The position numbers and the translations under genes are program-made. The notes below the pieces were generated by a model, which worked only from the letters and a program-made list of their open reading frames with translations, made no database searches and was not told the origin of the DNA. Shown one piece after another: positions 8,621 through 23,043 of a stretch of DNA of 64,000 nt. The stretch's first letter is position 1. Each line of letters begins with the position of its first letter. This DNA comes from Flavobacterium swingsii (lineage in GTDB: Bacteria > Bacteroidota > Bacteroidia > Flavobacteriales > Flavobacteriaceae): assembly GCF_900111965.1 (NCBI RefSeq), contig NZ_FOJT01000002.1, positions 186,001 through 250,000 of the forward strand, in the 5' to 3' direction.

Positions 8621-8902
8621 ATGAATGCAAATTTTGAAATTATAGAAAAAGAAGCCATCGAAAACCTTCACTTTCCTGAAATAGATGTCTTAGAAGATAA
8701 AGAAGCAATTAACCAAAGAAATTCCGATTTAGAAAGAGCACTTTCGTTAGGAAATTTAGAGCATTCTAAAATTAAAATTTATTTTGAAGATGATTATTCT
8801 AAAAAAGTTGTCGAAACCACTATTTGGGGCGTAACAGACAAAAGGGTTATCCTAAAAAAAGGAGTTGTAATTCCTATAAATAGAATTTATAAATCTATTT
8901 AA
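8621..8902 (+). CDS. Conserved hypothetical protein, 93 residues
   Basis: A small soluble, acidic protein (MNANFEIIEKEAIENLHFPEID) ending with TTIWGVTDKRVILKKGVVIPINRI, which reads like a compact beta-rich domain. No signal peptide or membrane segment is present. I have the impression of seeing similar sequences in other flavobacteria but know no function. It is a stand-alone gene bounded by terminators on both sides, so it is probably transcribed alone. Confidence 0.82.
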   Translation: MNANFEIIEKEAIENLHFPEIDVLEDKEAINQRNSDLERALSLGNLEHSKIKIYFEDDYSKKVVETTIWGVTDKRVILKKGVVIPINRIYKSI

Positions 8903-8925
8903 AACCTATAATATATAATGTAAAG

Positions 8926-8957
8926 AGAGGCATCAATCATATTGATGTCTTTTTTTT
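8926..8957 (+). terminator. Rho-independent terminator
   Basis: Arms around ggcatcaat and attgatgtc (one G-U pair) with a 3-base loop, followed by a run of eight Ts. It ends the 93-residue protein gene. Confidence 0.8.
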
Positions 8958-9022
8958 AACATTTCTTTGTAACAAAAAAGTAAAAACTTACTCTAATTTT
9001 AACAATCAAAAAAAAATGAACA

Positions 9023-11263
9023 ATGAAATTAAACATGATTAAAGGATTATTTATTTCCGCATTATTTTTCGGAAGTAATATAATCTCAGCACAACAAGTA
9101 ACAAATTATAACTATCACGACGCTTTTGCACCTGGTTTTTATACAAAAAATGCTACCGAAACTCGTTCGGCAAGTGGTCAGCCAGGTTCAAAATACTGGC
9201 AAAACAGAGCCGATTATTCACTAACAGCATCGCTAAACGAAGCTAAAAACGAAATCTCAGGATCGGCAACAGTAACTTATACAAACAATAGTCCAGACAA
9301 GTTAGGGTTTCTTTGGATGCAAGTAGATCAAAACCTTTTTAAAAAAGATTCTCGAGGAAACGCTGTTATTCCTGTTAAAGGAAGCAGAAATGGAGCTAAA
9401 GGAGAAAATTTTGACGGTGGTTACAAAATAAAATCAGTAAAAGTTATTACTACATCAAACGGAAAATCGACCGAAAGTGATGCGAAATTTACTATTGTAG
9501 ATACTAGAATGCAAGTAGATTTGCCACAAGAACTTAAAGCAAACGGGGCAAGTATAAAACTTAAAATAGACTATTCATTTGTTTCTCCTTTTTATGGTTC
9601 AGACAGAATGGGAGTGCTAGAAACTAAAAACGGAAAAATATATACTGTTGCACAATGGTATCCTAGAATGTGTGTGTATGATGACGTAAAAGGTTGGAAT
9701 TCACTTCCATATTTAGGTGCAGGAGAATTTTATTTAGAATACGGAGATTTAGATGTAGCCATTACAGCACCAGCAAATCACATTGTAGTTTGCTCGGGAG
9801 AATTGCTAAATTCAACAGAAGTTTATACTGCAGAACAACAAAAAAGATGGGCAGCTGCAAAATTGAGCGACAAAACCGTTGCAATTCGTTCTGCCGATGA
9901 AGTTACAAATGCTAATTCTCGTCCAGCAGGAAAGCAAACCTTAACATGGAAATTTAAAATTAAAAATGCCCGTGATATGTCTTGGGCTTCATCTTCAGCA
10001 TTTGTTATCGATGCTGCAAAAATTAATTTACCAAGCGGCAAAAAATCGTTAGCTATTTCTGCTTATCCAGTAGAAAGTAATGGTAATGATGCTTGGGGAC
10101 GATCTACAGAATACACAAAAGCATCAATCGAAAATTATTCTAAACGTTGGTACGAATATCCTTATCCTGCTGCAACAAATGTAGCTGGAAATGAAGGCGG
10201 AATGGAGTATCCTGGAATCGTTTTTTGTAGTTGGGAATCTAAAGGATTAGATTTATGGGGCGTTACAGATCACGAATTCGGACACATTTGGTTTCCTATG
10301 ATTGTAGGTTCTAACGAGCGCTTATTTGCATGGATGGACGAAGGTTTTAATACTTTTATCAATTCGTTAAGTGCCGAAGATTTTAACAAAGGTGAATACA
10401 AACAACCTGCGATGAATATGCATCAAACTGCAGGAATGCTTACAAATCCTGATACAGAACCGGTTTATTCTGCACCAGACGGACTAAAAGAAGCAAATTT
10501 AGGACTTTTAGCTTATACAAAACCAGGAGCAGGACTAACCATGTTGCGTGAGCAAATTTTAGGAAAAGAAAGATTTGACAAAGCATTCAGAACTTATGTA
10601 GCCCGTTGGGCTTTTAAACACCCAACTCCAGACGACTTTTTTAGAACTATCGAAAATGTTTCAGGAGAAGATTTAAACTGGTTTTGGAGAGGTTGGTTTA
10701 TCAATAACTGGCGTCTAGATCAGTCAATTACTAAAGTGAAATATGTAAAAAATGATGCCAAACAAGGTGCTTTAATCACTATTGATAATTTAGAAAAAAT
10801 GCCAATGCCTGTTATTATTGAAGTTAAAACCAAAAGTGGTGCAACTTCTAGAATAACATTACCAGTAGAAATTTGGCAACGTAACAAATCATGGACTTTC
10901 AAACACAATTCTACCGAAGAATTAGAAAGTATTACTATCGACCCTAATCACGTTTTTCCTGATACAAATTCAGCAAATAATGTTTGGACTGATGCTAAAA
11001 ATGGAATTGAAAAAGGAATGAATTTAGATGCTTATTTAGGTAATTTCTCAAGTACTCAAATTCCTATTAAGATAAACGTTACTCAAGATGACGATACAAT
11101 CGTTATAAATGCTGAAGGGCAACCATCTACTTCTTTAGAAAACCTTGGAAACGGTAAGTTTACATTCGAACAAGCTCAACTAACAGTACAGTATAACGAG
11201 TTAAAAACTGGATTCAAGTTAAGTATAGGCGGACAAAATTTCGAGTTTACTAAAGACAAATAA
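9023..11263 (+). CDS. Secreted M1 family zinc aminopeptidase
   Basis: 746 residues with a signal peptide ending near residue 23 (NIISAQ). The metal site is complete: H417-E418-x-x-H421 followed after 18 residues by E440 (HEFGH ... WMDEGFN). EGGMEYPG at 391-398 corresponds to the substrate-binding GAMEN-type loop. The N-terminal half is the beta-sandwich of M1 enzymes. After the catalytic domain a beta-rich C-terminal region extends about 190 residues. It should trim N-terminal amino acids from peptides in the periplasm or at the surface. No T9SS C-terminal domain is evident. A strong terminator follows, so it is monocistronic. Confidence 0.92.
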
Positions 11264-11281
11264 TTCTTTTATTATTTATAA

Positions 11282-11314
11282 AAAAAAGTAGGTAATTTGA
11301 TTACCTACTTTTTT
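11282..11314 (+). terminator. Rho-independent terminator
   Basis: Perfect 14-bp arms 11282-11295 (aaaaaagtaggtaa) and 11301-11314 with a 5-base loop and a T run. It lies 18 bases after the M1 peptidase stop. Confidence 0.9.
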
Positions 11315-11330
11315 GTTTTTAAATATAAGA

Positions 11331-11338
11331 TTACATTT
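11331..11338 (+). promoter_or_regulatory. -7 promoter box of the next gene
   Basis: TACATTTG, a TAnnTTTG match, with a TTG about 16 bases upstream as a possible -33 element. The ATG at 11355 lies 16 bases downstream. The longer in-frame start at 11313 would contain this box, which favours the shorter start. Confidence 0.6.
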
Positions 11339-11354
11339 GTATAAAATATTATTT

Positions 11355-11792
11355 ATGAAAATAAATCCAAAAACAGGAATCGACCAACTCATTTTTGGCA
11401 TGAAACAAAAAGATGTTACAGCTATTTATGGTAATCCTGACAAGCAATACAAAGACGAAGAGAGTAATGTTATTTTTTTATATAATGATAAAAAATTGCG
11501 ACTAACATTTTATGAAGATGAGAATTTGAAATTGGGTTATATGATAAGTTCAAATCCTGATTTAGAATTGTTTTCTGAACAAATAATAGGAAAACAAATC
11601 GATGAGGTTGAGAAAAATATAACAAACAAAGGCATCAAATCTCTTGAAATAGAAAATTTTGACACGGTCGATAATTATTTTAACGAAAGTAATTGGATGA
11701 TTTTTCAGGTCGAATACAAAGAAGTAATTCGGTTTGAACTCGGAGCAACAATAAATGATAAGGACGAATTTGATTGGAAATTTAAAGGATAA
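11355..11792 (+). CDS. Conserved hypothetical protein, 145 residues
   Basis: Cytosolic, acidic and without signal or membrane segments. The N-terminus KTGIDQLIFGMKQKDVTAIYG followed by GNPDKQYKDEE recalls short lipoprotein-like or immunity-like domains in which FGM..KDV...G.P appears near the start, but I cannot assign a family. The C-terminus reads VIRFELGATINDKDEFDWKF. It has its own promoter box and a strong terminator, so it appears to be a single-gene unit. Confidence 0.82.
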   Translation: MKINPKTGIDQLIFGMKQKDVTAIYGNPDKQYKDEESNVIFLYNDKKLRLTFYEDENLKLGYMISSNPDLELFSEQIIGKQIDEVEKNITNKGIKSLEIENFDTVDNYFNESNWMIFQVEYKEVIRFELGATINDKDEFDWKFKG

Positions 11793-11811
11793 AACCAATT
11801 TTAGGAATTAA

Positions 11812-11850
11812 AAAAAAGGGAACAAAATTTTATATTTTGTTCCCTTTTTT
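11812..11850. terminator. Bidirectional terminator
   Basis: Perfect 17-bp arms 11812-11828 and 11834-11850 (core gggaacaaaat) with a 5-base loop, bounded by A and T runs. It separates the convergent hypothetical protein and PPIase genes. Confidence 0.92.
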
Positions 11851-11870
11851 ATTTGAATTTGTATCCTTTA

Positions 11871-12923
11871 TTATTTTGTAGCAACATTTATTTTAATCAA
11901 TTCTACTTCAAAAATTAAATCACTTTTTGCTGGTATAGCGCCAGGATAACCTTGTTCTCCGTATGCTAAGGTATAAGGTATGAAAAATTTATATTTAGCA
12001 CCTTCTTTCATTAATTGAAGACCTTCTGTCCAACCTTTTATAACTTGATTTAAACCGAAATCTATCGGTTCTCCACGTTGAACACTACTGTCAAAAACTT
12101 TACCATTAGTAAAACTTCCAGTGTAATGTACCTTTACATTACTTTCAGGTGTAGGAGCTAAACCAGTACCTTCTTTTAAAACAATATATTTTAATCCGCT
12201 TGCGGTTGTTTGTCCGTTTGCAAATTCTTTTAATGCAATTTCATTTGCAATAGCTCTTTCTTTTTCTTCTTTTTCAGCTTGAATTTTTGCTTCGGCATCT
12301 TTAGTTGTATAATAATTTGCAAAAACTTTTGCTGCGTCAAATTTTTTGGCTTCAGCTCCACTTCTAGAAATAGTAATTTTGTTTATCACATCGTCTTGCG
12401 CAATTTTGTTTACTATATCCATTCCAGAAACAACACTACCAAAAACGGTATGTTTCCCGTCTAACCATGGTGTGTCTTTGTGTGTGATAAAAAACTGACT
12501 TCCGTTTGTTGCTGGACCAGAATTTGCCATCGATAATATTCCGCCTTTGGTGTGTTTCAAATCGGTAATTTCATCTTTAAATTTGTATCCAGGATCTCCA
12601 GAACCATTTCCTAAAGGGTCACCACCTTGAATCATGAAATCTTTGATTACTCTATGAAATTTTAATCCGTTATAAAATGGTTTTCCTTTCAAATCTGCTT
12701 TTACGATAGTATTTGTTCCTTCTGCTAATGATATAAAATTTGCAACAGTGATTGGCGTTTTTACATATTCTAATTGTACTACAATTTTCCCTTTTGAGGT
12801 ATCAAATTCTGCAAATATTCCATTTGCTGTAGTTTTTGCTTCTACATTTTTTGTTCCTTTTTGAGCATAACCATTTGCGATAACTAAAAGGAATACTAAT
12901 AATAAGTTTAATTTTGTTTTCAT
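11871..12923 (-). CDS. Exported cyclophilin-FKBP fusion peptidyl-prolyl isomerase
   Basis: 350 residues with a cleavable-type signal peptide ([21 protein letters not shown]). Residues about 35-190 are a cyclophilin domain ([36 protein letters not shown]). Residues about 240-350 are an FKBP domain ([29 protein letters not shown]). Both should catalyse prolyl cis-trans isomerisation, here probably in the periplasm. It is the last gene of a run of three PPIase genes after gldI and a 364-residue paralogue 20 bases upstream. Confidence 0.92.
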
Positions 12924-12943
12924 CTTTTTTTTAAATATTTATA

Positions 12944-14038
12944 TTATTTACTTGGCATTTTTTCTAACATTTCTAATTCAAAAATCAAGTTAGTGTTTGG
13001 TGGAATTACACCATTTGCTCCTTGAGCTCCGTAGCCTAAATTAGAAGGAATAAACACAACTGCTTTATCTCCGAAGGACATTTTTTCTAGACCTTCGATA
13101 AATCCTGGAATCATACCATCTTTTTTTCCTGCTACAAATGGGAATGGTTGGTATCCGTTTTGTGCGGCTCTGTTCGCATCGAATTTTCCGAATTCGCGAT
13201 TTACATTTTCGTAACTGCTGTCAAAAAGGTTTCCGTCTTCAAAATAACCAGCATAATGAAAAAAGAACGTTGTTCCTGCTGCTGGTTTTTTACCTTTACC
13301 TTTATTTACAATAGTGTACATTAATCCTGATTCTGTTTTTGTAGCTTTGGCTTTAACAGTTGCAAAATAAGCGATTTTATCAGTTATTATCTTTGCATAT
13401 TTGGCATCATCTGCTTTTTTTGCAACTAGTTGGGTATCGAAATAGTCTTTAAAAACTTTTGGTGCATCAAACTTTTTGGCAGCTTCTCCTTTTCGGATAA
13501 TTTCTATTTTAATGATTTCGTCATCTTGCGCTATTTTATTTACAACATCTTGACCTTCTATAATATGACCAAAAACAGTGTGACGACCATTTAAATAATT
13601 GGTTTCTTTGTGTGTAATAAAAAATTGACTTCCGTTAGTTTCTGGACCAGCATTTGCCATAGCAAGAATTCCTTCTTTGTCCATTTTTAAATCGTCACGA
13701 AACTCGTCTTTAAATTTGTAACCTGGTCCGCCAGAGCCATTTCCGTCTGGATCACCACCTTGTATCATAAAATCGGCAATTACTCTATGAAATTTTAATC
13801 CGTTATAAAAAGGTTTTCCACTAAATTTTTCGTTAACAAAAGTGTTTGTTCCTTCGGCAAGTGATACGAAATTTGCAACGGTTATTGGTGTTTTTTCGAA
13901 TTCTAATTGTAGTAAAATCTTCCCTTTACCCGTTTCTATTTCGGCATAAAGACCATCTGACAACTTATCGTGTTGTGAGTTGCATGAAAATAAGAGTAAT
14001 GCTGTAAGGCTTAATACTAATTTTGTTATTCTATTCAT
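12944..14038 (-). CDS. Cyclophilin-FKBP fusion lipoprotein
   Basis: 364 residues. The N-terminus LSLTALLLFSCNSQHDK carries a lipobox with the acylated cysteine near residue 19. A cyclophilin domain follows ([23 protein letters not shown]) and then an FKBP domain (FFFHYAGYFEDGNLFDSS, GYGAQGANGVIPPN) that contains an insertion (NVNREFGKFDANRAAQNGYQPF) not seen in the neighbouring paralogue. It sits 26 bases downstream of gldI and 20 bases upstream of the 350-residue fusion, consistent with one operon. It is probably an envelope folding factor. Confidence 0.92.
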   Translation of the reverse strand: MNRITKLVLSLTALLLFSCNSQHDKLSDGLYAEIETGKGKILLQLEFEKTPITVANFVSLAEGTNTFVNEKFSGKPFYNGLKFHRVIADFMIQGGDPDGNGSGGPGYKFKDEFRDDLKMDKEGILAMANAGPETNGSQFFITHKETNYLNGRHTVFGHIIEGQDVVNKIAQDDEIIKIEIIRKGEAAKKFDAPKVFKDYFDTQLVAKKADDAKYAKIITDKIAYFATVKAKATKTESGLMYTIVNKGKGKKPAAGTTFFFHYAGYFEDGNLFDSSYENVNREFGKFDANRAAQNGYQPFPFVAGKKDGMIPGFIEGLEKMSFGDKAVVFIPSNLGYGAQGANGVIPPNTNLIFELEMLEKMPSK

Positions 14039-14064
14039 TGTTTAAAAAATATGGTTAGTTAATT

Positions 14065-14631
14065 TTAATTTTCAGTTGTTTTTGAAAACGGTTTAATGTC
14101 ATTTAAGGTAACTGTACAAATTAGAGGTTCGTTTGTTCCTATTTTTTTGTTGTCGCCATGATAGCCAAAAGCCATGTGTGATGGAAACAAAAACGTTACT
14201 TTTTCGCCTTTTTGCATTAATTTAATTCCGTCACGTAAACCCATCATAATCGCCTGTTTGTCAACTACATATTGATGTGGTTTTAGTTCAGCTTGACTGT
14301 AAATAATGTTCCCATTTATATCTTTTACTTCATAATCATAAAAAGCAATATCACCTTTTATAGGTTTTGCAGTTTCCGTGGTATTTTTTGTATTATAATA
14401 ATACCAATATCCTTTTGTTGATGCAATATAATTGACAGCAGTATCTTTTTTAATTATTTTGGCAATGATATTTTCTTCATTTTCGTTCAGTTTTTTATTT
14501 CTTTCAACCGATTGTTTCATAAACTCGCCCGATGCTTGCGAAACGGGTCTTCTTGGTTCTTGTTTTGTTGTACAACATGTAACTAAATTCATGCCAAGAA
14601 GTAAACAACCTATGATTTTTAATAATTTCAT
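14065..14631 (-). CDS. gldI: Gliding-motility-associated peptidyl-prolyl isomerase lipoprotein GldI
   Basis: 188 residues. A lipoprotein signal ends in LVTCC, and an FKBP-like domain fills the C-terminal half (GDIAFYDYEVKDINGNIIYS, MAFGYHGDNKKIGTNEPLICTV). Length, lipobox and domain match GldI, a lipoprotein required for gliding in Flavobacterium johnsoniae and thought to help fold envelope gliding/secretion proteins. Neighbouring fusion PPIases on the same strand fit such a role. Distinguishing it from other FKBP lipoproteins rests on my recognition of the N-terminal region rather than an alignment. Confidence 0.85.
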   Translation of the reverse strand: MKLLKIIGCLLLGMNLVTCCTTKQEPRRPVSQASGEFMKQSVERNKKLNENEENIIAKIIKKDTAVNYIASTKGYWYYYNTKNTTETAKPIKGDIAFYDYEVKDINGNIIYSQAELKPHQYVVDKQAIMMGLRDGIKLMQKGEKVTFLFPSHMAFGYHGDNKKIGTNEPLICTVTLNDIKPFSKTTEN

Positions 14632-14638
14632 ATCAATT

Positions 14639-15649
14639 TTATTTTTTAATTTCTTTTACAATTCTTTCAAAATTTGCAATAGTTTCTTGCAATGATTTGT
14701 CCGATTTTCCTCCCGCAGCATTGATGTGTCCGCCACCGCCAAAATAATTTCTAGAGAACTGATTTACATCAAAACTCCCTTGCGAGCGGAATGAAATTTT
14801 AACAATTCCTTCGGCAGTATTTTCGATAAAGATAGCAGTAAAATCGATTCCGTCAATAGAAAGTCCGTAATTTACAATTCCTTCCGTATCGCCTTTCTGA
14901 AAATTATAAGTATCTAATTCTTCTTGCGAAAGTGTAATATATGACGTTTTATAATCAGGCATTAACTTCATGTTTTGAAGTGCACGACCTAACAATTGTA
15001 AGCGACTGTAAGAGCTTTTGTCAAATAATTGATTGTGAATAGCACTGTTTTCGACACCTTTATCAATCAAATCGGCAACCATTCGGTGTGTTGTGCTTGT
15101 TGTTTTTGGGAAGCGAAAAGAACCAGTATCGGTTACAATTCCTGTATAAATACAAGTTGCAACGGTTTTATTGATGAATTTTTCTTGTTTTAATTGATGT
15201 ATAAAATGATACACCATCTCGCAAGTAGAACCATATTTTGTATCCGAAAAAGTATATTTTGCAAAAGAATCTGGAAACTCATGATGGTCTATCATCACAA
15301 AAGTTTTGTCTAATGTTTCTAATGTAGCTTGCATCAAATCTCCAGTTCTGTGCAGCGCATTAAAATCTAAAGTAAAAATTAAGTCGGATTGGTCTAAAAT
15401 TTTAGTACAGTTTTCTTTGTCTTTTTCAAAAACCAATACTTTTTCTGAAGCTGGTAACCAAGCTAAAAAATCAGGAAACTCATTAGGCGACATTACCACA
15501 ACCTCATGGTTTTGTTGAACTAAAAAGTGATATAATCCTAGAGTAGATCCCATAGCATCGCCATCAGGATTTCTGTGCGGAATGATTGTTATTTTTTTTG
15601 GTGAAGCTAATAATGTTTTTATTGCTTCAATTTCAGTATCTGTCATCAT
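14639..15649 (-). CDS. DHH-family phosphoesterase, NrnA-like oligoribonuclease/pAp phosphatase
   Basis: 336 residues. HRNPDGDAMGS near residue 25 and MIDHHEFPDSF are the metal-binding motifs of the DHH superfamily. FGGGGHINAAGG in the C-terminal DHHA1 domain binds substrate in NrnA-like enzymes. Such proteins degrade short RNA oligomers and/or 3'-phosphoadenosine 5'-phosphate in the cytosol. Length is right for the family. gldI begins 8 bases downstream, so the DHH gene probably heads the gldI-PPIase unit. Two consecutive ATGs make the exact start ambiguous by one residue. Confidence 0.9.
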   Translation of the reverse strand: MMTDTEIEAIKTLLASPKKITIIPHRNPDGDAMGSTLGLYHFLVQQNHEVVVMSPNEFPDFLAWLPASEKVLVFEKDKENCTKILDQSDLIFTLDFNALHRTGDLMQATLETLDKTFVMIDHHEFPDSFAKYTFSDTKYGSTCEMVYHFIHQLKQEKFINKTVATCIYTGIVTDTGSFRFPKTTSTTHRMVADLIDKGVENSAIHNQLFDKSSYSRLQLLGRALQNMKLMPDYKTSYITLSQEELDTYNFQKGDTEGIVNYGLSIDGIDFTAIFIENTAEGIVKISFRSQGSFDVNQFSRNYFGGGGHINAAGGKSDKSLQETIANFERIVKEIKK

Positions 15650-15740
15650 GTTGCGAAAATACAGATTTTCATTTAATTTAAATACTTAAAATTATCATAA
15701 TTTTAAAGTTGACAATAAAGACGATATGTGAATTAAATCT

Positions 15741-15748
15741 TACATTTG
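15741..15748 (+). promoter_or_regulatory. -7 promoter box upstream of the gasdermin-like candidate
   Basis: TACATTTG fits TAnnTTTG. It would give a leader of about 35 bases to the ATG at 15788. No good -33 TTG is found at the usual spacing. Confidence 0.5.
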
Positions 15749-15787
15749 TGCTACTTAATTTTACAGATTAGCATAAAAAACAGCATA

Positions 15788-16489
15788 ATGAAACTAACAA
15801 ATTTTTTAAGTAATCAAGGTTATGATTTAATAGAAGGCCCAATTAGAAATCAGAAACCATTGCAATTGTGGTTGAAAAAAACTTTTAGCGAAGCCGAATT
15901 GTATTATGCTAATATTAATCATGCTTTTAAAAGTGAAGCTGTTTTAACTGAAATCGAAAATCCAGCATTAAGTATTAATTCCAATCACAAAAATGATTAT
16001 GAATTTAATATTGGAATTACACTTTTAGAAGAAATTTTAGCATCACTTGGATTAGGTGCATTCGAATTATCATCAAAAATAACTTCTGGAAAATTGGTTA
16101 CTATTAGCTATGACAATTCAATTACAAAAGAATATGCGGTAGGTAATCTTGAAGAATATTTATTTTCCGCCGATTTTATTCACGCCAATCCTTCTCTTCT
16201 AAAAAATGCCAACCAAAATAACATTATCCTTATTACGGGAGTCGTTTTTGCTAAAAGTTTAGTAGTGGATATTGAAACTGATTTTTCATTAAATGCCAAT
16301 TTAATTACAACTTTAAATCAAATTGCTGATGGAAAATTAGATTTTTCGACTAAAAACAATAATAAATTGAAAATGGTTTCCAGCGAAAATAATTATTTTC
16401 CAATTGCCATTAAAGCCAGTAGAATTGATTTTGACAGAAGTACATTCAAAAAATTAAGTTTAATTTCGGACAGCAGAAATCTTTTTTAA
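15788..16489 (+). CDS. Uncharacterised 233-residue protein, candidate bacterial gasdermin-like
   Basis: The ATG at 15788 is preferred over 15746 because the longer frame overlaps the promoter box. There is no signal peptide, no obvious transmembrane helix and no cysteine. The arrangement resembles what I recall of bacterial gasdermins: an early GYDLIEGP and PLQLWLKK (11-31), an amphipathic segment FNIGITLLEEILASLGLG (73-90), SYDNS, LEEYLFSADF, the strand-like ILITGVVFAKSLVVDI (147-162), and FPIAIKASRIDFD (204-216). A 17-residue tail follows, where gasdermins carry a short inhibitory peptide. The usual N-terminal cysteine and an adjacent protease gene are both missing. The gene is isolated, divergent from the DHH gene and convergent with a lipoprotein. 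The coding call is firm; the family guess is tentative. Confidence 0.45.
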   Translation: MKLTNFLSNQGYDLIEGPIRNQKPLQLWLKKTFSEAELYYANINHAFKSEAVLTEIENPALSINSNHKNDYEFNIGITLLEEILASLGLGAFELSSKITSGKLVTISYDNSITKEYAVGNLEEYLFSADFIHANPSLLKNANQNNIILITGVVFAKSLVVDIETDFSLNANLITTLNQIADGKLDFSTKNNNKLKMVSSENNYFPIAIKASRIDFDRSTFKKLSLISDSRNLF

Positions 16490-16581
16490 GCTATTTTTTT
16501 ACGATACTTTTATAATAAAGTGCTTCAGTTAAGAAATTGTTGTTACTAATGATATTATAAAAAATCAAATAAAATCAATAA

Positions 16582-17103
16582 TTATAGCGGATCAGCAACT
16601 ACGCTAAATCTCATATCAGCCTTTATGGTAACATCTTGATTTACTGTTTCTTTAGTTGTTACTTTAGTTCGTAATTTATAGCTAGATGCTTTAAGATATG
16701 CATCTAATCTTTGCGAAGTACAAGTTAAATTTATAGTATTGGCTGTCGAAACAATATTGTCTGCATAAGCCAATTCAACTTCATCATTTGCATTTGTAGA
16801 GATATAAATGTGTACCGATTTAAGAAAACTAAATGTTTTATCAGTAGGATTTGTAATAGTAAGTTTCAGTTCTTGCAATTTTACGTCTTTTACTAAATCG
16901 GCTCTGGTATTGTTATTACTAAAGTTTGATGATGAGTTTGTAGTGACATCTGGAGTTGGAATTTCTAAAGGAGAATTAACAAGAAATCCACTATTTACAG
17001 TAAAAGAAGCCTGATTAGTCACGCTAAATGTTAATAATTCATCTATTTTATTACACGAGATAAGTGATGTAATAATAATTGCTAAAAATATTTTTGTCTT
17101 CAT
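16582..17103 (-). CDS. Lipoprotein of unknown function
   Basis: 173 residues with a lipobox (AIIITSLISCNK, cysteine at about residue 17). The mature part is Ser/Thr/Asn-rich (NSSSNFSNNN) and appears to be a single beta-sandwich, with LQELKLTITNPTDKTFSFLKSV resembling LEA14-like or fibronectin-like strands. No catalytic motif is seen. It appears monocistronic, with a -7 box at 17131-17138, and is convergent with the 233-residue candidate gene. Likely anchored in an envelope membrane. Confidence 0.82.
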   Translation of the reverse strand: MKTKIFLAIIITSLISCNKIDELLTFSVTNQASFTVNSGFLVNSPLEIPTPDVTTNSSSNFSNNNTRADLVKDVKLQELKLTITNPTDKTFSFLKSVHIYISTNANDEVELAYADNIVSTANTINLTCTSQRLDAYLKASSYKLRTKVTTKETVNQDVTIKADMRFSVVADPL

Positions 17104-17130
17104 GTTATTTCCCTTAATATAGATGTTTCA

Positions 17131-17138
17131 CAAATGTA
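17131..17138 (-). promoter_or_regulatory. -7 promoter box of lipoprotein gene
   Basis: The minus-strand sequence TACATTTG matches TAnnTTTG, 27 bases upstream of the ATG at 17103. Confidence 0.5.
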
Positions 17139-17192
17139 TTAATTAGCTTCTATAAATTGTAAATTATATTTTAGAATTTAAAATTTTAAAAG

Positions 17193-17200
17193 TATTTTTG
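17193..17200 (+). promoter_or_regulatory. -7 promoter box of guaA, probably leaderless
   Basis: TATTTTTG fits TAnnTTTG and ends 3 bases before the guaA ATG at 17204, so the expected transcription start falls on or next to the start codon. The upstream in-frame TTG lies within this box and is therefore rejected as the start. Confidence 0.6.
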
Positions 17201-17203
17201 CGC

Positions 17204-18733
17204 ATGCAACACAACGTACTAATTTTAGATTTCGGGTCACAATACACGCAATTGATTGCCCGCAGAGTTCGCGAATTAAATATATTCTGCGAAATTTTCC
17301 CTTTCGATAAAATCCCTACCGATTTATCTATTTATAAAGCCGTAATTCTTGGTGGAAGCCCATTTTCTGTTCGTTCAGAAGATGCTTTGCATCCAGATCT
17401 ATCAGAAATTCGTGGCAAATTACCATTGTTAGCTGTTTGTTACGGTGCACAATATTTAGCCCATTTTTCTGGTGGAGAAGTAGCTGCCTCGAACACTCGC
17501 GAATATGGTCGTGCAAATTTAGCTTATATTAAGGAGAACGAAACTTTCTTTGACAACGTAAATCTAAACTCACAAGTTTGGATGTCACATAGTGATTCGA
17601 TAAAAAAATTACCTACAAACGGAGTTAAATTAGCCAGTACACAAGATGTAGAAAATGCTGCTTACAAGATTGAAGGAGAAACAACCTACGCCATACAATA
17701 CCATCCGGAAGTATTTCATTCGACCGATGGAAAGCAAATGTTAGAGAACTTTTTGGTGAAAATTGCCGAAGTTCCTCAAAACTTTACACCAAATGCTTTT
17801 GTTGAAGAAATGGTAGCCGAACTAAAAGAAAAACTAAAAGATGATAAAGTGGTTTTAGGACTTTCTGGTGGTGTAGATTCGACAGTAGCAGCGGTTTTAT
17901 TACATAAGGCTATTGGTAAAAACCTATATTGTATTTTTGTAAATAACGGATTGTTGAGAAAAAATGAATTCCAAAGTGTTTTAGATCAATATGAAGGAAT
18001 GGGACTTAATGTGAAAGGAGTAGATGCTTCTCAACGTTTTTATGATGCCTTAGCTGGGCTTGTTGATCCAGAATTAAAAAGAAAAGCTATTGGTAATGCT
18101 TTTATCGAAGTTTTTGATGATGAATCACATAAAATTGAGAATGTTACTTGGTTAGCACAAGGCACAATATATCCTGACGTAATCGAATCAGTTTCGGTAA
18201 AAGGACCATCGGCAACTATCAAATCGCATCACAATGTAGGTGGTTTGCCGGATTATATGAAATTAAAAATTGTTGAACCACTTAGAATGTTGTTTAAAGA
18301 CGAAGTGCGTAGAGTAGGAGCAACGTTAGGAATTGATCCCGAATTATTAGGAAGACATCCTTTTCCTGGACCAGGATTGTCTATTCGTATTTTGGGAGAT
18401 ATTACTCCTGAAAAAGTTCAGATTTTGCAAGATGTTGATGCCGTTTTCATCAACGGACTTAAAGAACACGGATTGTACGACAAAGTTTGGCAAGCAGGCG
18501 CGATTTTACTTCCTGTAAATAGCGTTGGTGTTATGGGCGACGAGCGTACTTACGAAAAAGTAGTTGCTTTAAGAGCCGTAGAATCTACCGATGGTATGAC
18601 TGCAGATTGGGTACATCTTCCGTATGAATTTTTGATGAAAATCTCTAACGATATTATTAATAAAGTAAAAGGTGTAAATAGAGTTGTGTATGACATAAGT
18701 TCGAAACCACCAGCAACTATCGAGTGGGAATAA
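17204..18733 (+). CDS. guaA: GMP synthase (glutamine-hydrolysing)
   Basis: 509 residues. It converts XMP to GMP with ATP and glutamine. The N-terminal class I glutamine amidotransferase domain has its nucleophile at C79 ([15 protein letters not shown]) and the His-Glu pair in YHPEVFHS. The ATP pyrophosphatase domain has the P-loop [12 protein letters not shown], and the C-terminal dimerisation domain ends in the typical PPATIEWE. Length is standard. The ATG is preceded almost immediately by a -7 box. Repetitive DNA follows the gene rather than a clear terminator. Confidence 0.97.
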
Positions 18734-18736
18734 ATA

Positions 18737-18880
18737 GGCACGCGGATGTTGCGGATACTCACGGATTTTTTAAAATTTCTTCGTGTATCTCTGTGTAACC
18801 TTTGAGAATCTTGGTGATTTTTTTTATTTTTAAAATCTGTAACCCGAGCGAAGCGAATTGACGAAGTAATCTGCGGTAAA
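18737..18880. repeat. Composite dispersed intergenic repeat after guaA
   Basis: The segment contains repeated gcggat/acggat words (18742-18768), a ttcgtgtatctctgtgtaac block (18780-18799) resembling 23045-23117, and cccgagcgaagcgaattgac (18843-18862), which is the inverse of the TTCGTCAATTCG motif at 2643-2706. No open frame or stable hairpin is evident. It looks like a pile-up of several repeat families common in this genome's spacers. Confidence 0.55.
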
Positions 18881-18920
18881 AAAAGAATTCGATAATCAAA
18901 AATGTTAAAATAAATTATGA

Positions 18921-18955
18921 TAAGTCATTACATTAGATAACTTTGTAATGACTTA
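18921..18955. promoter_or_regulatory. 12-bp perfect inverted repeat overlapping a -7 box
   Basis: Arms 18921-18932 (taagtcattaca) and 18944-18955 are perfect complements around an 11-base spacer. A TAACTTTG promoter box at 18938-18945 lies in the spacer and the first bases of the second arm. A T-rich run follows the second arm, so termination after the guaA region is an alternative to an operator for the LysM gene downstream. Confidence 0.55.
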
Positions 18956-18977
18956 TTTTTTTAAACAAATTTACCTT

Positions 18978-20681
18978 ATGAAGTATTTAGTATTATTGTT
19001 TTTGTGTATCTCGAATTTTGTCTTTGCTCAACAAGAAAAAACCCTTACTCATAAAGTGGCAAAAGGCGAAAATATTTTTCAAATTGCAAAAACTTACAAT
19101 ATTACGCCTTCAGATATTTATAAAATAAACCCTGGAACCGAAAATGGGATTCAAGAAAATCAGGTTCTAATTGTACCTAATAAACCTGCTGTTTTACACG
19201 ATTCGAAAAACACACACCAAGTTCAGCCCAAAGAAACATTATTTAGTATTGCCCGTTTATACAATGTTTCGGTGCAGGATTTAGATAATTCTAACACAGA
19301 AGCTTTAAAAGATGGATTACAAATTGGAGAAAGTATTGCAATTCCCAATAAAAAGAAAACATTAAATGGTCAGGCAAGAATTATAAATGCAGAAACCGTT
19401 TTTCATGTTGTGTTACCAAAAGAGACAAAATATTCTATTGCAAAAAAGTACGGAATTTCTATCGAACAACTAGAAACTCAAAATCCAGAAATTATAAACG
19501 GATTGGTTGAAGGCAATAAATTGGCTATCAATGTAAAACAAATAAAACCCAACAGCGACAACGAAGAACTCATGATTGCATTGGCTGAAAAACAAGCTGC
19601 CATCGAAAAAAATAAAGCAAAAACTACCGAAATTGAAGATTTGCAAGACAAACTAACGGTTCAGAAACAAATGAATCAGAAGGTTTTAAAAGTAAATTCA
19701 TTAAAAGTAAATTTGAATGAAATAGACGAAACCAAAGGCGGCTCGGCAAAAAAACTAAAATTGGTATTGGAAGCCAATAAAAACATTCAAGAAATTTTAA
19801 TTTCAAAACTAGATTCTCTTGTAGTAACAATGAGCGATGACCTTGAAACCCTGAAAAATAAAGATATTGATGATTTACAAGAATCGAAAAGTTTAGAAAA
19901 AGATTCTTATAAAAACATGGGTGAAACAAATGGAATGATTCTCGAATTGAAAAGAGATTTGGCCGATAATCGAAAAATTTATACAGGTTTAATGACTAAA
20001 GTACAGCGAATTACTTTGGCAGAAAACCACGAATACAAGAAAAAAGTAAATGAAAATCAGAAAATAAAAAATAATACTTCGGAAGATGCGGAATTACTTG
20101 AAGTAATTAAAAACATTCAAACCAAACAAGAAGCAAACGAAAAACGAAACAAACAATTATTTACAAAAATAGATTCACTTGGAGTTCAGAAAAATGTAGA
20201 GCTGAAACGTAGAATCTCTAAAGCTACTTTTTACAGCTCGGAAGCCAGAGATTATGACGACAAATTAGCGCAAGTAAAATTAAAAAGATACCAAAAGAAA
20301 GCTTTGGAAACTAATAAAGATTTAGCTTCAACTGAAAATAAACCAACCGCCGAACAAATTAAAAAAGCGCTAAATAACAAAGATTATAACGAAGAAAAAG
20401 CCGTGAAAATTGAAGTTTTAAGAAATTTAAACGAGGTAGAAGACGGTTTTTATATTATTGTAGATACTTTTACAGAAGCCGAACTAAGAGATATTTTTGC
20501 AAGAAAACTTACTGATTCTGGCGAGATAAACACAGGATTTTTCTATAATGTTAATGTTTTTTCTTATTATGTTTTTACAAAGAAATTCAAAAATGCAAAC
20601 GAAGCACTTTTCGAATATAATGTAAAGAAAGAAAATTCACTTTATAAAAATATGTTTATTGTTCAAATTGAAAAAGAATAA
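18978..20681 (+). CDS. LysM repeat protein with coiled coil and C-terminal SPOR-like region
   Basis: 567 residues from the ATG at 18978, the start of a good signal peptide (MKYLVLLFLCISNFVFAQ). Three LysM domains lie at about 23-68, 80-124 and 143-187 and should bind peptidoglycan. A long charged, probably coiled-coil stretch spans about 205-480. The last 90 residues (GFYIIVDTFTEAELRDIF, FYNVNVFSYYVFTKKF) resemble the SPOR-like segments of Bacteroidota envelope proteins. The N-terminal half closely parallels the next gene's product (TPSDIYKINPGTENG vs TPSDIYKLNPDAQKG), so they are paralogues with different C-termini. A role in cell-wall organisation is inferred from the domains. Confidence 0.85.
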   Translation: MKYLVLLFLCISNFVFAQQEKTLTHKVAKGENIFQIAKTYNITPSDIYKINPGTENGIQENQVLIVPNKPAVLHDSKNTHQVQPKETLFSIARLYNVSVQDLDNSNTEALKDGLQIGESIAIPNKKKTLNGQARIINAETVFHVVLPKETKYSIAKKYGISIEQLETQNPEIINGLVEGNKLAINVKQIKPNSDNEELMIALAEKQAAIEKNKAKTTEIEDLQDKLTVQKQMNQKVLKVNSLKVNLNEIDETKGGSAKKLKLVLEANKNIQEILISKLDSLVVTMSDDLETLKNKDIDDLQESKSLEKDSYKNMGETNGMILELKRDLADNRKIYTGLMTKVQRITLAENHEYKKKVNENQKIKNNTSEDAELLEVIKNIQTKQEANEKRNKQLFTKIDSLGVQKNVELKRRISKATFYSSEARDYDDKLAQVKLKRYQKKALETNKDLASTENKPTAEQIKKALNNKDYNEEKAVKIEVLRNLNEVEDGFYIIVDTFTEAELRDIFARKLTDSGEINTGFFYNVNVFSYYVFTKKFKNANEALFEYNVKKENSLYKNMFIVQIEKE

Positions 20682-20725
20682 TAAAACACTCAAATTTTAG
20701 TTATAATACTATACAAACCTACATA

Positions 20726-22642
20726 ATGAAATACCTTATATATATCGTTTGCTTTTTGTTTTTGAGCACTAATCTTGCATTAGCACAATCGACCAATTTA
20801 ATAAAACACAAAGTTCAAAAAGGAGAAACAATAGCTCAAATCTCAATAAAATATAGCGTTACGCCTTCAGATATATACAAACTAAATCCTGATGCACAAA
20901 AAGGAGTTGAAGAAAACACCATTTTAATTATCCCCAATAAAGCTAAAGTAAAAGTTGAAATCCCTTCAAATTCTACCACAAAAAAGCACACTGTTTTAGC
21001 CAAAGAAACTCTGTATAGTTTGTCTAAATTGTACAATGTTTCTATTTCTGACATCGAAAAAGCAAACGTTGAAACACTAAAAGAAGGTGTTAAAATTGGT
21101 ATGGTTTTAATGATTCCAGCAAAAGGAAAATCGATTCCTGTCGAAAAACCGAAGCCAAACAATCCCAAAACTGCAGTTTACCACGAAGTAAAAGCCAAAG
21201 AAACTAAATATGCAATTGCTAAACAATACGAAATTACAATCGAACAACTGGAAAAACTAAATCCTGAAATTGTAAATATCGAATTACCAATAGGTTTTAA
21301 ATTATTAATAAATGGTGAAAAAATAAATGTTGCCCCAAAACCAATAATTGTTAATGTACCAACACCAAAGCCTTCAGAGAGTTTGTATGTTATAAAAGCC
21401 AAAGAAACTTTATACAGTATTTCGAATCAATTTGAAGTAACTCAGGAAGAATTATTAGCATTAAATCCAGAATTGAAAGATGGAGTTATAGAAGGAATGA
21501 GTATCAAAGTTCCTATGAAATCATCGGTTTTGGCAATGAAAAAAGAATACAAAGATTTGACGAAAAGCATTCAAAAAGGAACGAACAAAAAGTTAGCATT
21601 ACTACTTCCTTTCAATCTGACTAAATTAGACCAAGATACAATCAACTCAACCAAAGCGCGTCTTAAAAAAGATAAATTTCTGAATATGACACTCGATTTT
21701 TATGCGGGTGCTTTGGTAGCCATCGATTCTGTTCGAAAAATGGGTTTGAATGTCGATGTGACTATTTTAGATTCTAACGAAACCAAATCGACATCTAATG
21801 TAACGAGTTTAGTTCAAGAAAATAACTTAAAAATTTTTGATGCAATTATAGGTCCATTTTACCAAAATAATGTCGAAAAAACAGCCAGTTTATTAAGTGC
21901 TAGTAATGTTCCAGTTTTTTCGCCATTGTCTAAAGATTATGATAAGAAATTTCCAAATTTAGTGCAAGCAACACCATCTGTTGATGATATAAAAAATGCT
22001 ATATTCGATTTTATGAGAGCAAAAAATGGCAACATGATTGCTATTGTAGATCCTAAAAAAGCATCGGTAAAACAGTATATTTCAGAAAATCATAAAGACG
22101 TTCTTTTTGCACAATTTACCGAAAAAGGAAGTTTAGATATCGAAAATTTGAAATCAATGTTGGTCAAAGACAAAACAAATTTTGTCATCATGGAAACCGA
22201 AAAAACAAATCTTATTTTGAGTATAACCAATACTTTAGCGAGCTTATTACCCAATTATGACATCAAATTAGTGATTTTAGGAGAAAACGACGCTTTAGAT
22301 TATGAAGAAATTGCGATGACTCGACTTACGAAATTAAAAATGCATTATCCTTCGCTTACTCGTGTTAACGAATCGGACGAAGCAAATATTTTCGAGAATA
22401 GTTTTAAAAGAAAAAATAAAATAGTACCCAATCAGTTTGCTACGCGTGGTTTCGATGTGACTTTTGATGTTTTATTGCGTTTGACTCAAGAAAAAAATAT
22501 TACTGAAACACTAAATGAAACTGCCACCGAACAAGTTGAAAACAGGTTTTATTACAAACAAAATCCCGACGGAGGATATACAAACAAAGGCGTTTATATC
22601 TTATATTATGATACAGATTTAACCATAAAAGAAGCAAAATAA
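20726..22642 (+). CDS. LysM protein with type 1 periplasmic-binding (PBP1-like) domain
   Basis: 638 residues with a signal peptide (MKYLIYIVCFLFLSTNLALAQ). Four LysM domains lie at about 27-71, 87-131, 151-197 and 220-263. From about residue 290 the protein carries a domain of the receptor ligand-binding/Leu-Ile-Val-binding fold (LALLLPFNLTKLDQD, FDAIIGPFYQNNVEKTASLL, NVPVFSPLSKDYDKKFPNLVQATPS). This combination recalls LpoA-like regulators of peptidoglycan synthases, which is a hypothesis. The stop overlaps the osmC-like ATG by one base, implying translational coupling. Confidence 0.9.
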   Translation: MKYLIYIVCFLFLSTNLALAQSTNLIKHKVQKGETIAQISIKYSVTPSDIYKLNPDAQKGVEENTILIIPNKAKVKVEIPSNSTTKKHTVLAKETLYSLSKLYNVSISDIEKANVETLKEGVKIGMVLMIPAKGKSIPVEKPKPNNPKTAVYHEVKAKETKYAIAKQYEITIEQLEKLNPEIVNIELPIGFKLLINGEKINVAPKPIIVNVPTPKPSESLYVIKAKETLYSISNQFEVTQEELLALNPELKDGVIEGMSIKVPMKSSVLAMKKEYKDLTKSIQKGTNKKLALLLPFNLTKLDQDTINSTKARLKKDKFLNMTLDFYAGALVAIDSVRKMGLNVDVTILDSNETKSTSNVTSLVQENNLKIFDAIIGPFYQNNVEKTASLLSASNVPVFSPLSKDYDKKFPNLVQATPSVDDIKNAIFDFMRAKNGNMIAIVDPKKASVKQYISENHKDVLFAQFTEKGSLDIENLKSMLVKDKTNFVIMETEKTNLILSITNTLASLLPNYDIKLVILGENDALDYEEIAMTRLTKLKMHYPSLTRVNESDEANIFENSFKRKNKIVPNQFATRGFDVTFDVLLRLTQEKNITETLNETATEQVENRFYYKQNPDGGYTNKGVYILYYDTDLTIKEAK

Positions 22643-23043
22643 TGACATCAAAAATAACATATTTAGGCGATTTAAGAACTTCATCTATTCACTTACAATC
22701 AGGAACCGAAATCCTTTCGGACGCACCAATAGACAATAACGGGAAAGGCGAAGCATTCTCGCCAACCGATTTAGTTGCAAATGCTACAGGAAGTTGTATG
22801 ATGACTATAATGGCAATAAAAGCAAGAGATTTGAACGTAGATTTAATAGGAACTACTATCGAAGTAACTAAAATTATGCAAGCCGAACCAAGAAAAATTT
22901 CCAGAATAGAAATTATCATGAATATGTCGATTGCTGCTGACGAGAAAACAAAAACTATTCTTGAGAGAACAGCAATGAATTGTCCAGTTTTGTTAAGCCT
23001 TAATCCAGATATTGAAAAAGATATTACTATAAATTGGCAGTAG
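22642..23043 (+). CDS. OsmC/Ohr family protein
   Basis: 133 residues. The two redox cysteines of the family are present: C52 in TGSCMMTIMAIKAR and C114 in MNCPVLLSLNPD. The family reduces organic hydroperoxides with thiols in the cytosol. It overlaps the stop of the LysM-PBP1 gene by one base. Substrate and electron donor are unknown. A repeat-filled spacer follows. Confidence 0.92.
   Translation: MTSKITYLGDLRTSSIHLQSGTEILSDAPIDNNGKGEAFSPTDLVANATGSCMMTIMAIKARDLNVDLIGTTIEVTKIMQAEPRKISRIEIIMNMSIAADEKTKTILERTAMNCPVLLSLNPDIEKDITINWQ

Follow-up and report, generated by a model that had tools for sequence, protein, structure and literature searches.

Sequence models and structure prediction indicated that the window, a 64,000-nucleotide stretch of the Flavobacterium swingsii genome, encodes a genuine bacterial gasdermin without an adjacent protease gene. 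In published accounts bacterial gasdermins are activated by a protease, which in most cases is encoded by a neighbouring gene; for the lineage to which this orphan belongs, the means by which the pore would be activated is therefore a question of interest. We consider it probable that the protein is a one-gene gasdermin with a short C-terminal latch and no usual cleavage motif, which would be opened by an unlinked factor or by a trigger free of cleavage.

The open reading frame extends from the ATG at 15788 to the stop codon at 16487-16489. Its position, its 233 residues and its lack of cysteine agreed with the sequence-only reading on which this analysis builds, and the order of motifs given there was also correct: GYDLIEGP..KPLQLWLKK, FNIGITLLEEILASLGLG, YDNS, LEEYLFSADF, ITGVVFAKSLVV and FPIAIKASRIDFD, followed by 17 residues. 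No signal peptide was seen by eye, and the opposite strand contained many stops in the one frame that was read. The two flanking genes run in the other direction and are separated from the gasdermin gene by 138 and 92 bp, so that the latter is most likely transcribed alone. The features of the locus are listed below by position in the window.

14639..15649, minus strand: left neighbour, DHH/DHHA1 phosphoesterase (Pfam); context only, not a partner
15741..15748, plus strand: TACATTTG, a TAnnTTTG element 47 bases upstream of the gasdermin ATG
15788..16489, plus strand: coding sequence of the orphan bacterial gasdermin, 233 residues, no cysteine
16004..16057, plus strand: residues 73-90, FNIGITLLEEILASLGLG, modelled mainly as a helix, within the stretch aligned to the Vitiosangium gasdermin
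16436..16486, plus strand: residues 217-233, a turn, the last beta strand (219-225) and the short C-terminal segment proposed as a latch
16469..16486, plus strand: residues 228-233, DSRNLF, with Asp at -6 and the terminal Phe invariant in the 26 orphans; low local confidence
16582..17103, minus strand: right neighbour, 173-residue open reading frame, no Pfam match, lipoprotein-like start by eye; context only
17204..18733, plus strand: GMP synthase gene, the conserved anchor for the site comparison

The TAnnTTTG element, which we take to resemble the -7 element of Bacteroidetes promoters, was found within 200 bp upstream of the gene in 16 of 23 orphan loci, against 3.3 +/- 1.8 expected from 500 simulations of first-order Markov sequences (simulated maximum 10). 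The 23 upstream stretches are partly related, so this enrichment does not represent independent cases. No further conserved motif was apparent in their alignment. Beyond the DHH phosphoesterase, on the same side of the gasdermin, the window encodes FKBP-type isomerases; three consecutive peptidyl-prolyl isomerase genes occupy 11871-14631 on the minus strand, two of them fusions of a cyclophilin and an FKBP domain.

Comparison with family models bore out the suspected resemblance to gasdermins. The window protein matched the NCBIfam model NF051890 (prok_gasdermin) with an E value of 1.3e-37 and 129.5 bits over residues 8-207, above the curated cut-off of 100, and the PADLOC model bGSDM at 4.6e-25 over residues 2-223. 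Among PDB sequences, the only matches of the protein (P0001) at E values up to 10 were the Vitiosangium gasdermin chains 8sl0 and 7n51 (E ~5e-4). A profile search returned the same two chains at 3.3e-7 and 4.8e-7, together with two others at chance level (E 0.8 and 0.94). Pfam gave nothing significant for the protein (best Rv3651-like_C, E 0.17), which we did not take as a negative since NCBIfam and PADLOC both matched. An NCBIfam hit to the BB0027 outer-membrane barrel was rejected as too weak (E 0.051; 13.1 bits where the model requires 300). Either family model would thus name the protein a gasdermin, but their output describes neither an orphan lineage nor missing parts. Alignment of the orphan profile to a single canonical gasdermin (L048) using hhalign was short and weak (44 columns, probability 5 %); the relation between orphan and canonical proteins therefore rests on the family models and the fold.

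Two further observations came from these models. The PADLOC model for KwaB (DUF4868) was weakly matched by 3 of 28 gasdermins (best E 2.2e-6), probably by chance or through a shared local feature. The gasdermin model was weakly matched by proteins at three other loci (L052 6758-7507, plus strand; L053 6923-7657, minus strand; L054 6722-7639, plus strand), which scored 24.8, 21.4 and 26.7 bits against the cut-off of 100. These proteins begin with lipoprotein-type signals as judged by eye, two of the three span nearly the whole gasdermin profile, and they may represent an exported gasdermin-like fold.

AlphaFold2 prediction supported the assignment. A first model, based on 23 close orphans, was poor (pLDDT 61.5), with the same gasdermin family on top. 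The addition of distant members, from 23 to 28 rows, raised the pLDDT to 82.7; this second model was built without templates from 28 sequences of the window and the fetched loci, and reached a pTM of 0.77. In a Foldseek search it retrieved bacterial gasdermins at ranks 1-8 (7n51, E 9.7e-15) and eukaryotic gasdermins at ranks 9-13. VIA-align, which speaks only for the folds in its comparison list, superposed the model on the closed forms from Vitiosangium (7n51; Z 18.5, rmsd 3.0, 227 residues aligned, 1-233 on 6-263), Runella (7n52_C; Z 15.4, rmsd 4.2, 220 aligned, 1-231 on 5-261) and Bradyrhizobium (7n50; Z 12.8, rmsd 4.6, 216 aligned, 1-233 on 9-256). The open Vitiosangium oligomer gave a lower score (8sl0; Z 12.3, rmsd 6.7, 169 aligned, 3-227 on 11-233), and the closed form therefore fits the model best. 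Z values were 12.4 for 8jyw and 7.1-8.5 for the RCD-1 entries. Perfringolysin- and pneumolysin-type cytolysins (Z ~6-7) were read as distant pore-forming-fold relatives and rejected as a family assignment. The predicted structure thus has the gasdermin fold with its twisted central sheet, and the structural check proposed in the earlier reading came out in favour of a gasdermin.

Searches for related genes defined a lineage of 26 orphans, the window protein and 25 others, found in Flavobacterium and Psychroflexus, in two more genomes of the Flavobacteriaceae and in a single genome outside that family. A scan of named genomes yielded 14 loci, from 11 Flavobacterium and 3 Psychroflexus species, and 13 of 199 Flavobacterium genomes carried the orphan gasdermin, each in one copy. 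At the family level, 9 of 397 genomes matched NF051890, six above the cut-off: four with orphans (G000, G257, G371, G539) and two with canonical gasdermins (G211, G533). The three matches below it were not counted; those in G445 and G368 are lipoprotein-like proteins, and that in G290 is partial. The phylum-level search matched 4 of 395 genomes; three were above the cut-off, all of them already-known orphans, and the fourth (G667) was not counted. At the order level a wider alignment matched 5 of 395 genomes, including the member of another family (G963). One order-level match (G1237), on a contig of the same length as the F. pectinovorum record L016, was left out of the 26.

The orphans are uniform in size and composition. 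All but one are exactly 233 residues long, the exception having 236, and cysteine is absent from 25 of the 26, the last (L050) having Cys154 only. An alignment of 23 orphans covered 233 columns with zero gaps, the 22 relatives being 50-72 % identical to the window protein. The ratio omega had a median of 0.09 over the 30 pairs with usable dS (of 253 pairs) and lay between 0.04 and 0.17 in the 15 listed pairs of lowest dS, which in terms of sequence indicates strong purifying selection. Based on the gap-free alignment and the low omega, we conclude that the window gasdermin is a real gene. A maximum-likelihood tree confined to the 26 orphans and two canonical gasdermins split the orphans from these two protease-linked proteins with a support of 100/100 and a very long branch.

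The orphan gene occurs in at least seven different neighbourhoods. One lies between the genes for DUF3754 and Mpo1, which are separated by 89 and 93 bp in two non-carriers (L099, L119) and by 959 bp containing only the gasdermin in one carrier (L015). At two loci (L026, L014) the gasdermin instead flanks DUF3754 on the side away from Mpo1, and fewer than 60 bp separate DUF3754 from Mpo1. The DUF3754 gene was present in 49 of 199 genomes; eight of the 49 are gasdermin carriers, seven with the gasdermin nearby, and this site is therefore mostly free of it. Many carriers share the DUF3754/Mpo1 neighbourhood, so their solitary state is not independent. Across loci L014-L031 and L094-L123 the DUF3754-Mpo1 interval varied from ~45 bp to more than 1 kb and contained genes that differed between species, as a small insertion hotspot. 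At the site of the window gene, one relative (L093) has the GMP synthase and DHH genes side by side, without the gasdermin. It also has no 173-residue open reading frame and is therefore not an exact empty site; none was found among the relatives compared (L085-L093). In L085, L087 and L090, 2.7-3.5 kb of other sequence separates the 173-residue frame from the DHH gene; L091 and L092 have 1.3 and 3.0 kb of other sequence between the DHH gene and GMP synthase, and in L086, L088 and L089 the fetched stretch did not contain the DHH gene. A clean comparison is thus offered only by the DUF3754-Mpo1 site of other species.

Spread of the orphan by phages or plasmids found no support in the collections searched. 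No tblastn match to the gasdermin was obtained at E 0.01 in 50,697 phage records and 72,556 plasmid records, and none of 38 candidate stretches from viral contigs was confirmed. A different link to phages would be a trap consisting of a single gene, in which a phage protein cleaves the latch or pushes it aside. Such sensing would account for the patchy spread (13 of 199 Flavobacterium genomes) and the missing partner; it is consistent with insertion as a lone gene, and the gasdermin family is known for phage protection (PMC9079055). However, the tail is strongly conserved and not variable as a bait would suggest, and no recognised defence system was present among the neighbours scanned with Pfam. 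We regard this explanation as improbable.

The absence of an adjacent protease gene and of an N-terminal cysteine for palmitoylation, both noted from the sequence, held up. An N-terminal cysteine for palmitoylation is reported in most, but not all, canonical bacterial gasdermins; the window protein has no cysteine at all, and its gene is flanked by the DHH phosphoesterase and the 173-residue frame without Pfam match. The orphan status also holds among the scanned neighbours of the relatives. No caspase, CHAT or trypsin-type domain was detected by Pfam among 60 neighbour proteins around the orphans, which were chosen by hand in sets of 50 and 10, other neighbours being covered through a scanned protein of their cluster. 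Within two genes of 23 gasdermins there are 92 open reading frames of at least 90 residues, seven of which fall outside the scan and its clusters (one each at L014, L017, L023, L026, L030, L031 and L032); one or two next-but-one frames were left out at each of L050, L051 and L128. As positive controls, the same search recovered the two canonical gasdermins (L047, L048), which begin MGRICKN and MRICKN; a Peptidase_C14 gene precedes each of them, at distances of 18 and 2 bp.

Proteins with peptidase names do occur near some orphans. In the scanned part of the window (9023-23040) Pfam gave two such matches. One is a Peptidase_M1 protein 4.5 kb upstream of the gasdermin (9023-11263), the start of which reads as a signal peptide by eye. 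The other, to Peptidase_C26, is weak (22.0 bits; cut-off 20.5) and falls on the amidotransferase portion of GMP synthase, an enzyme of another kind. Among the relatives, a prolyl oligopeptidase is encoded two genes from the orphan in L050, and an M14 carboxypeptidase adjoins it in L051; in L020 the gene two positions away encodes an esterase-type protein that matches Peptidase_S9. The peptidase-named neighbours thus differ between loci. Separately, a GH25 lysozyme gene (8829-9722, minus strand) is directly upstream of the orphan in L035, on the same strand. PMC9612521 describes lysozyme genes near some gasdermin operons. Reviews of bacterial gasdermins grade protease linkage as 'most' or 'often'.

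Genome-wide searches extended this comparison to 17 carriers. Peptidase_C14 was found in five (G098, G099, G157, G192, G195) and CHAT in ten (G054, G075, G098, G099, G114, G136, G154, G184, G195, G257); both canonical control genomes had C14 and CHAT. Neither domain was detected at E 0.001 in five carriers (G000, G130, G371, G539, G963), some of which are draft genomes (G963, 270 contigs) and one of which is the genome of the window gasdermin. Trypsin_2 proteases were present in all 19 genomes tested. G371 and G539 have a single Trypsin_2 match each, in frames of 463-469 residues that we call HtrA-like, and the copy of similar size in G000 begins with an export-signal-like sequence.

These results bear on activation by an unlinked protease, either a housekeeping cytosolic protease or a caspase or CHAT protease encoded elsewhere, which would trim the C-terminal latch. 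Clp, Lon, FtsH or similar enzymes are housekeeping cytosolic proteases, and the invariant terminal Phe with its hydrophobic neighbours could be a recognition tag. A caspase-like trigger encoded elsewhere is possible in 12 of the 17 carriers, whose genomes contain C14 or CHAT. In canonical bacterial gasdermins, activation occurs through a cut close to the C terminus (PMC9612521; PMC9079055). Against such a protease, the conserved L/R-Gly motif is missing at the expected place, no protease family recurs beside the gene in the scanned loci, and the HtrA-like copy of G000 looks exported and would then be separated from the gasdermin by the membrane. We give this explanation a substantial chance, if somewhat less than an even one.

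The 17-residue tail described from the sequence is present, but only in part as a tail: residues 219-225 form a beta strand in the model, and the latch proper is therefore limited to some 8 residues at the end. In the superpositions, the alignment ends at Vitiosangium 263, Runella 261 and Bradyrhizobium 256, in the C-terminal region of these closed structures. The latch is the least confident part of the model, with a pLDDT of 59 for residues 231-233. Judged by first and last aligned residues only, the Runella position 261 lies beyond the cleavage residue L247. The mapping of orphan to canonical tails was made at 12-19 % identity. All 26 orphans end in Phe and have Asp at the sixth position from the end, and these two residues, Asp(-6) and Phe(-1), are the most constant of the last 11.

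According to PMC9612521, cleavage of bacterial gasdermins follows a Leu or Arg that lies ~20 residues before the C terminus, and the Leu and its adjacent Gly were essential in the case tested. The R-G pair of the canonical L047 and L048 proteins, taken as the likely cut because of this published Leu/Arg-Gly rule, aligned to orphan columns -12/-11, after which 11 residues follow. Between columns -14 and -8, Gly is absent from all 26 orphans. Three of them (L020, L033, L127) have LG or RG within their last 20 residues, each time at -17/-16, the hairpin turn. Considered as a motif only, the Leu/Arg-Gly cleavage site ~20 residues from the C terminus is thus not a property of the 26 orphans. Truncation of the bacterial gasdermin C terminus kills, and the Runella protein is cut after L247 (PMC9079055); in Bradyrhizobium the tail residue F253 touches the palmitate on C3 (PMC10989679). 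The orphans may have a short latch without a cleavage loop, in which the terminal Phe would take the role of the lipid-contacting part.

A possible split tail was seen in one of the caspase-linked gasdermins (L047 6813-6960, minus strand, genome G211). Its core open reading frame ends ...TGKFSRGN and is followed by sequence resembling the L048 tail, in a separate 42-residue frame that starts in a TGATG overlap. This arrangement is either a frameshift or a gasdermin tail made as a separate peptide.

The absence of the known switching parts could also mean that the protein opens without proteolysis, through a change of oligomer state, lipid or ligand, as is reported for fungal RCD-1 and the Trichoplax gasdermin. 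The adjacent protease, the N-terminal cysteine and the L/R-Gly motif with its longer tail are all missing together, five of the 17 carriers have neither C14 nor CHAT matches, and the 233 residues of the window protein are close to the 237 of the open 8sl0 chain, the closed 7n51 chain having 266. Cleavage-independent gasdermins are known in ancient eukaryotes, which provides precedents (PMC13305819 and PMC11760362). However, an RCD-1-like partner in the same genome was not seen: each of the 13 Flavobacterium carriers had a single match, a partner in another cell being outside the scope of this count. The VIA-align Z values to RCD-1 entries were only 7.1-8.5. With zero cysteines in 25 of the 26 orphans and one in the last, an intrachain disulfide switch of the Trichoplax type is excluded. 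We give cleavage-independent opening a chance only slightly smaller than that of an unlinked protease. A stricter version, a complete one-gene death switch in which a self-plugging latch ending in Phe replaces both the cleavage loop and the palmitate, and is released directly by a phage or stress signal, is put forward tentatively.

A last alternative is that the gasdermin fold was kept for another job such as lipid binding and that pore formation was lost. The absent switching parts and the scanned neighbours in the window, which look like housekeeping genes, are compatible with it. On the other hand, the model is covered from residue 1 to 233, the defence model bGSDM matched all 26 orphans and both canonical proteins of the wider alignment, 28 of 28 in total, and genes involved in conflict show a patchy distribution more typically than housekeeping genes do. 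We hold this to be very unlikely.

Returning to the preferred explanation of a latched one-gene gasdermin, the cytosolic protein would most likely assemble pores in the inner membrane of its own cell. Such a pore would kill or stop the cell, and its role is probably that of an abortive response when the cell is infected or damaged. In the closed state, the last beta strand would lead into the short conserved segment ending in the invariant Phe, which may pack at the place of the canonical inhibitory peptide and keep the protein closed. Because the gene combines a promoter-like element, purifying selection and a solitary position in varied sites, the trigger would have to come from the hosts or their phages. 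It could be a protease common to these cells or a protein of a phage, or else a conformational change could be induced directly, with the chain left uncut.

The orphans can be compared with two kinds of known gasdermin. They share with those of protease operons (Runella, Vitiosangium, Bradyrhizobium, Lysobacter; 7n50, 7n51, 7n52) the family, the predicted fold over the whole chain, a similar size and a C-terminal segment that is short, where other gasdermins have a large repressor domain. Unlike these, they have neither an adjoining caspase, CHAT or trypsin-type protease in the loci scanned nor an N-terminal cysteine, and ~11 residues without L/R-Gly follow the aligned place, whereas protease-operon gasdermins have ~20 or more past the cleavage site (PMC9612521). 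Fungal RCD-1 and the Trichoplax gasdermin (8jyw, 8jyv, 8jyx-z) likewise consist of a pore domain without a large repressor domain and are regulated without proteolysis (PMC11760362 and PMC13305819). They are more distant from the window protein in fold score (Z 12.4 for 8jyw, 7.1-8.5 for RCD-1). The Trichoplax protein uses a disulfide switch, for which the window protein has no cysteine, and RCD-1 has two allelic partners in place of the one copy per genome found here.

We found no published description of the orphan lineage in the literature searched, although the tables of the primary gasdermin papers may contain a member. If correct, a one-gene switch free of cleavage would be the first cleavage-independent prokaryotic gasdermin, as far as that literature shows. 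The existence of a lone-gene lineage would mean either that a shared cellular factor activates bacterial gasdermins or that a pore of this family opens uncut. In both cases, the orphan switch bears on the origins of gasdermin regulation before the large eukaryotic repressor domain.
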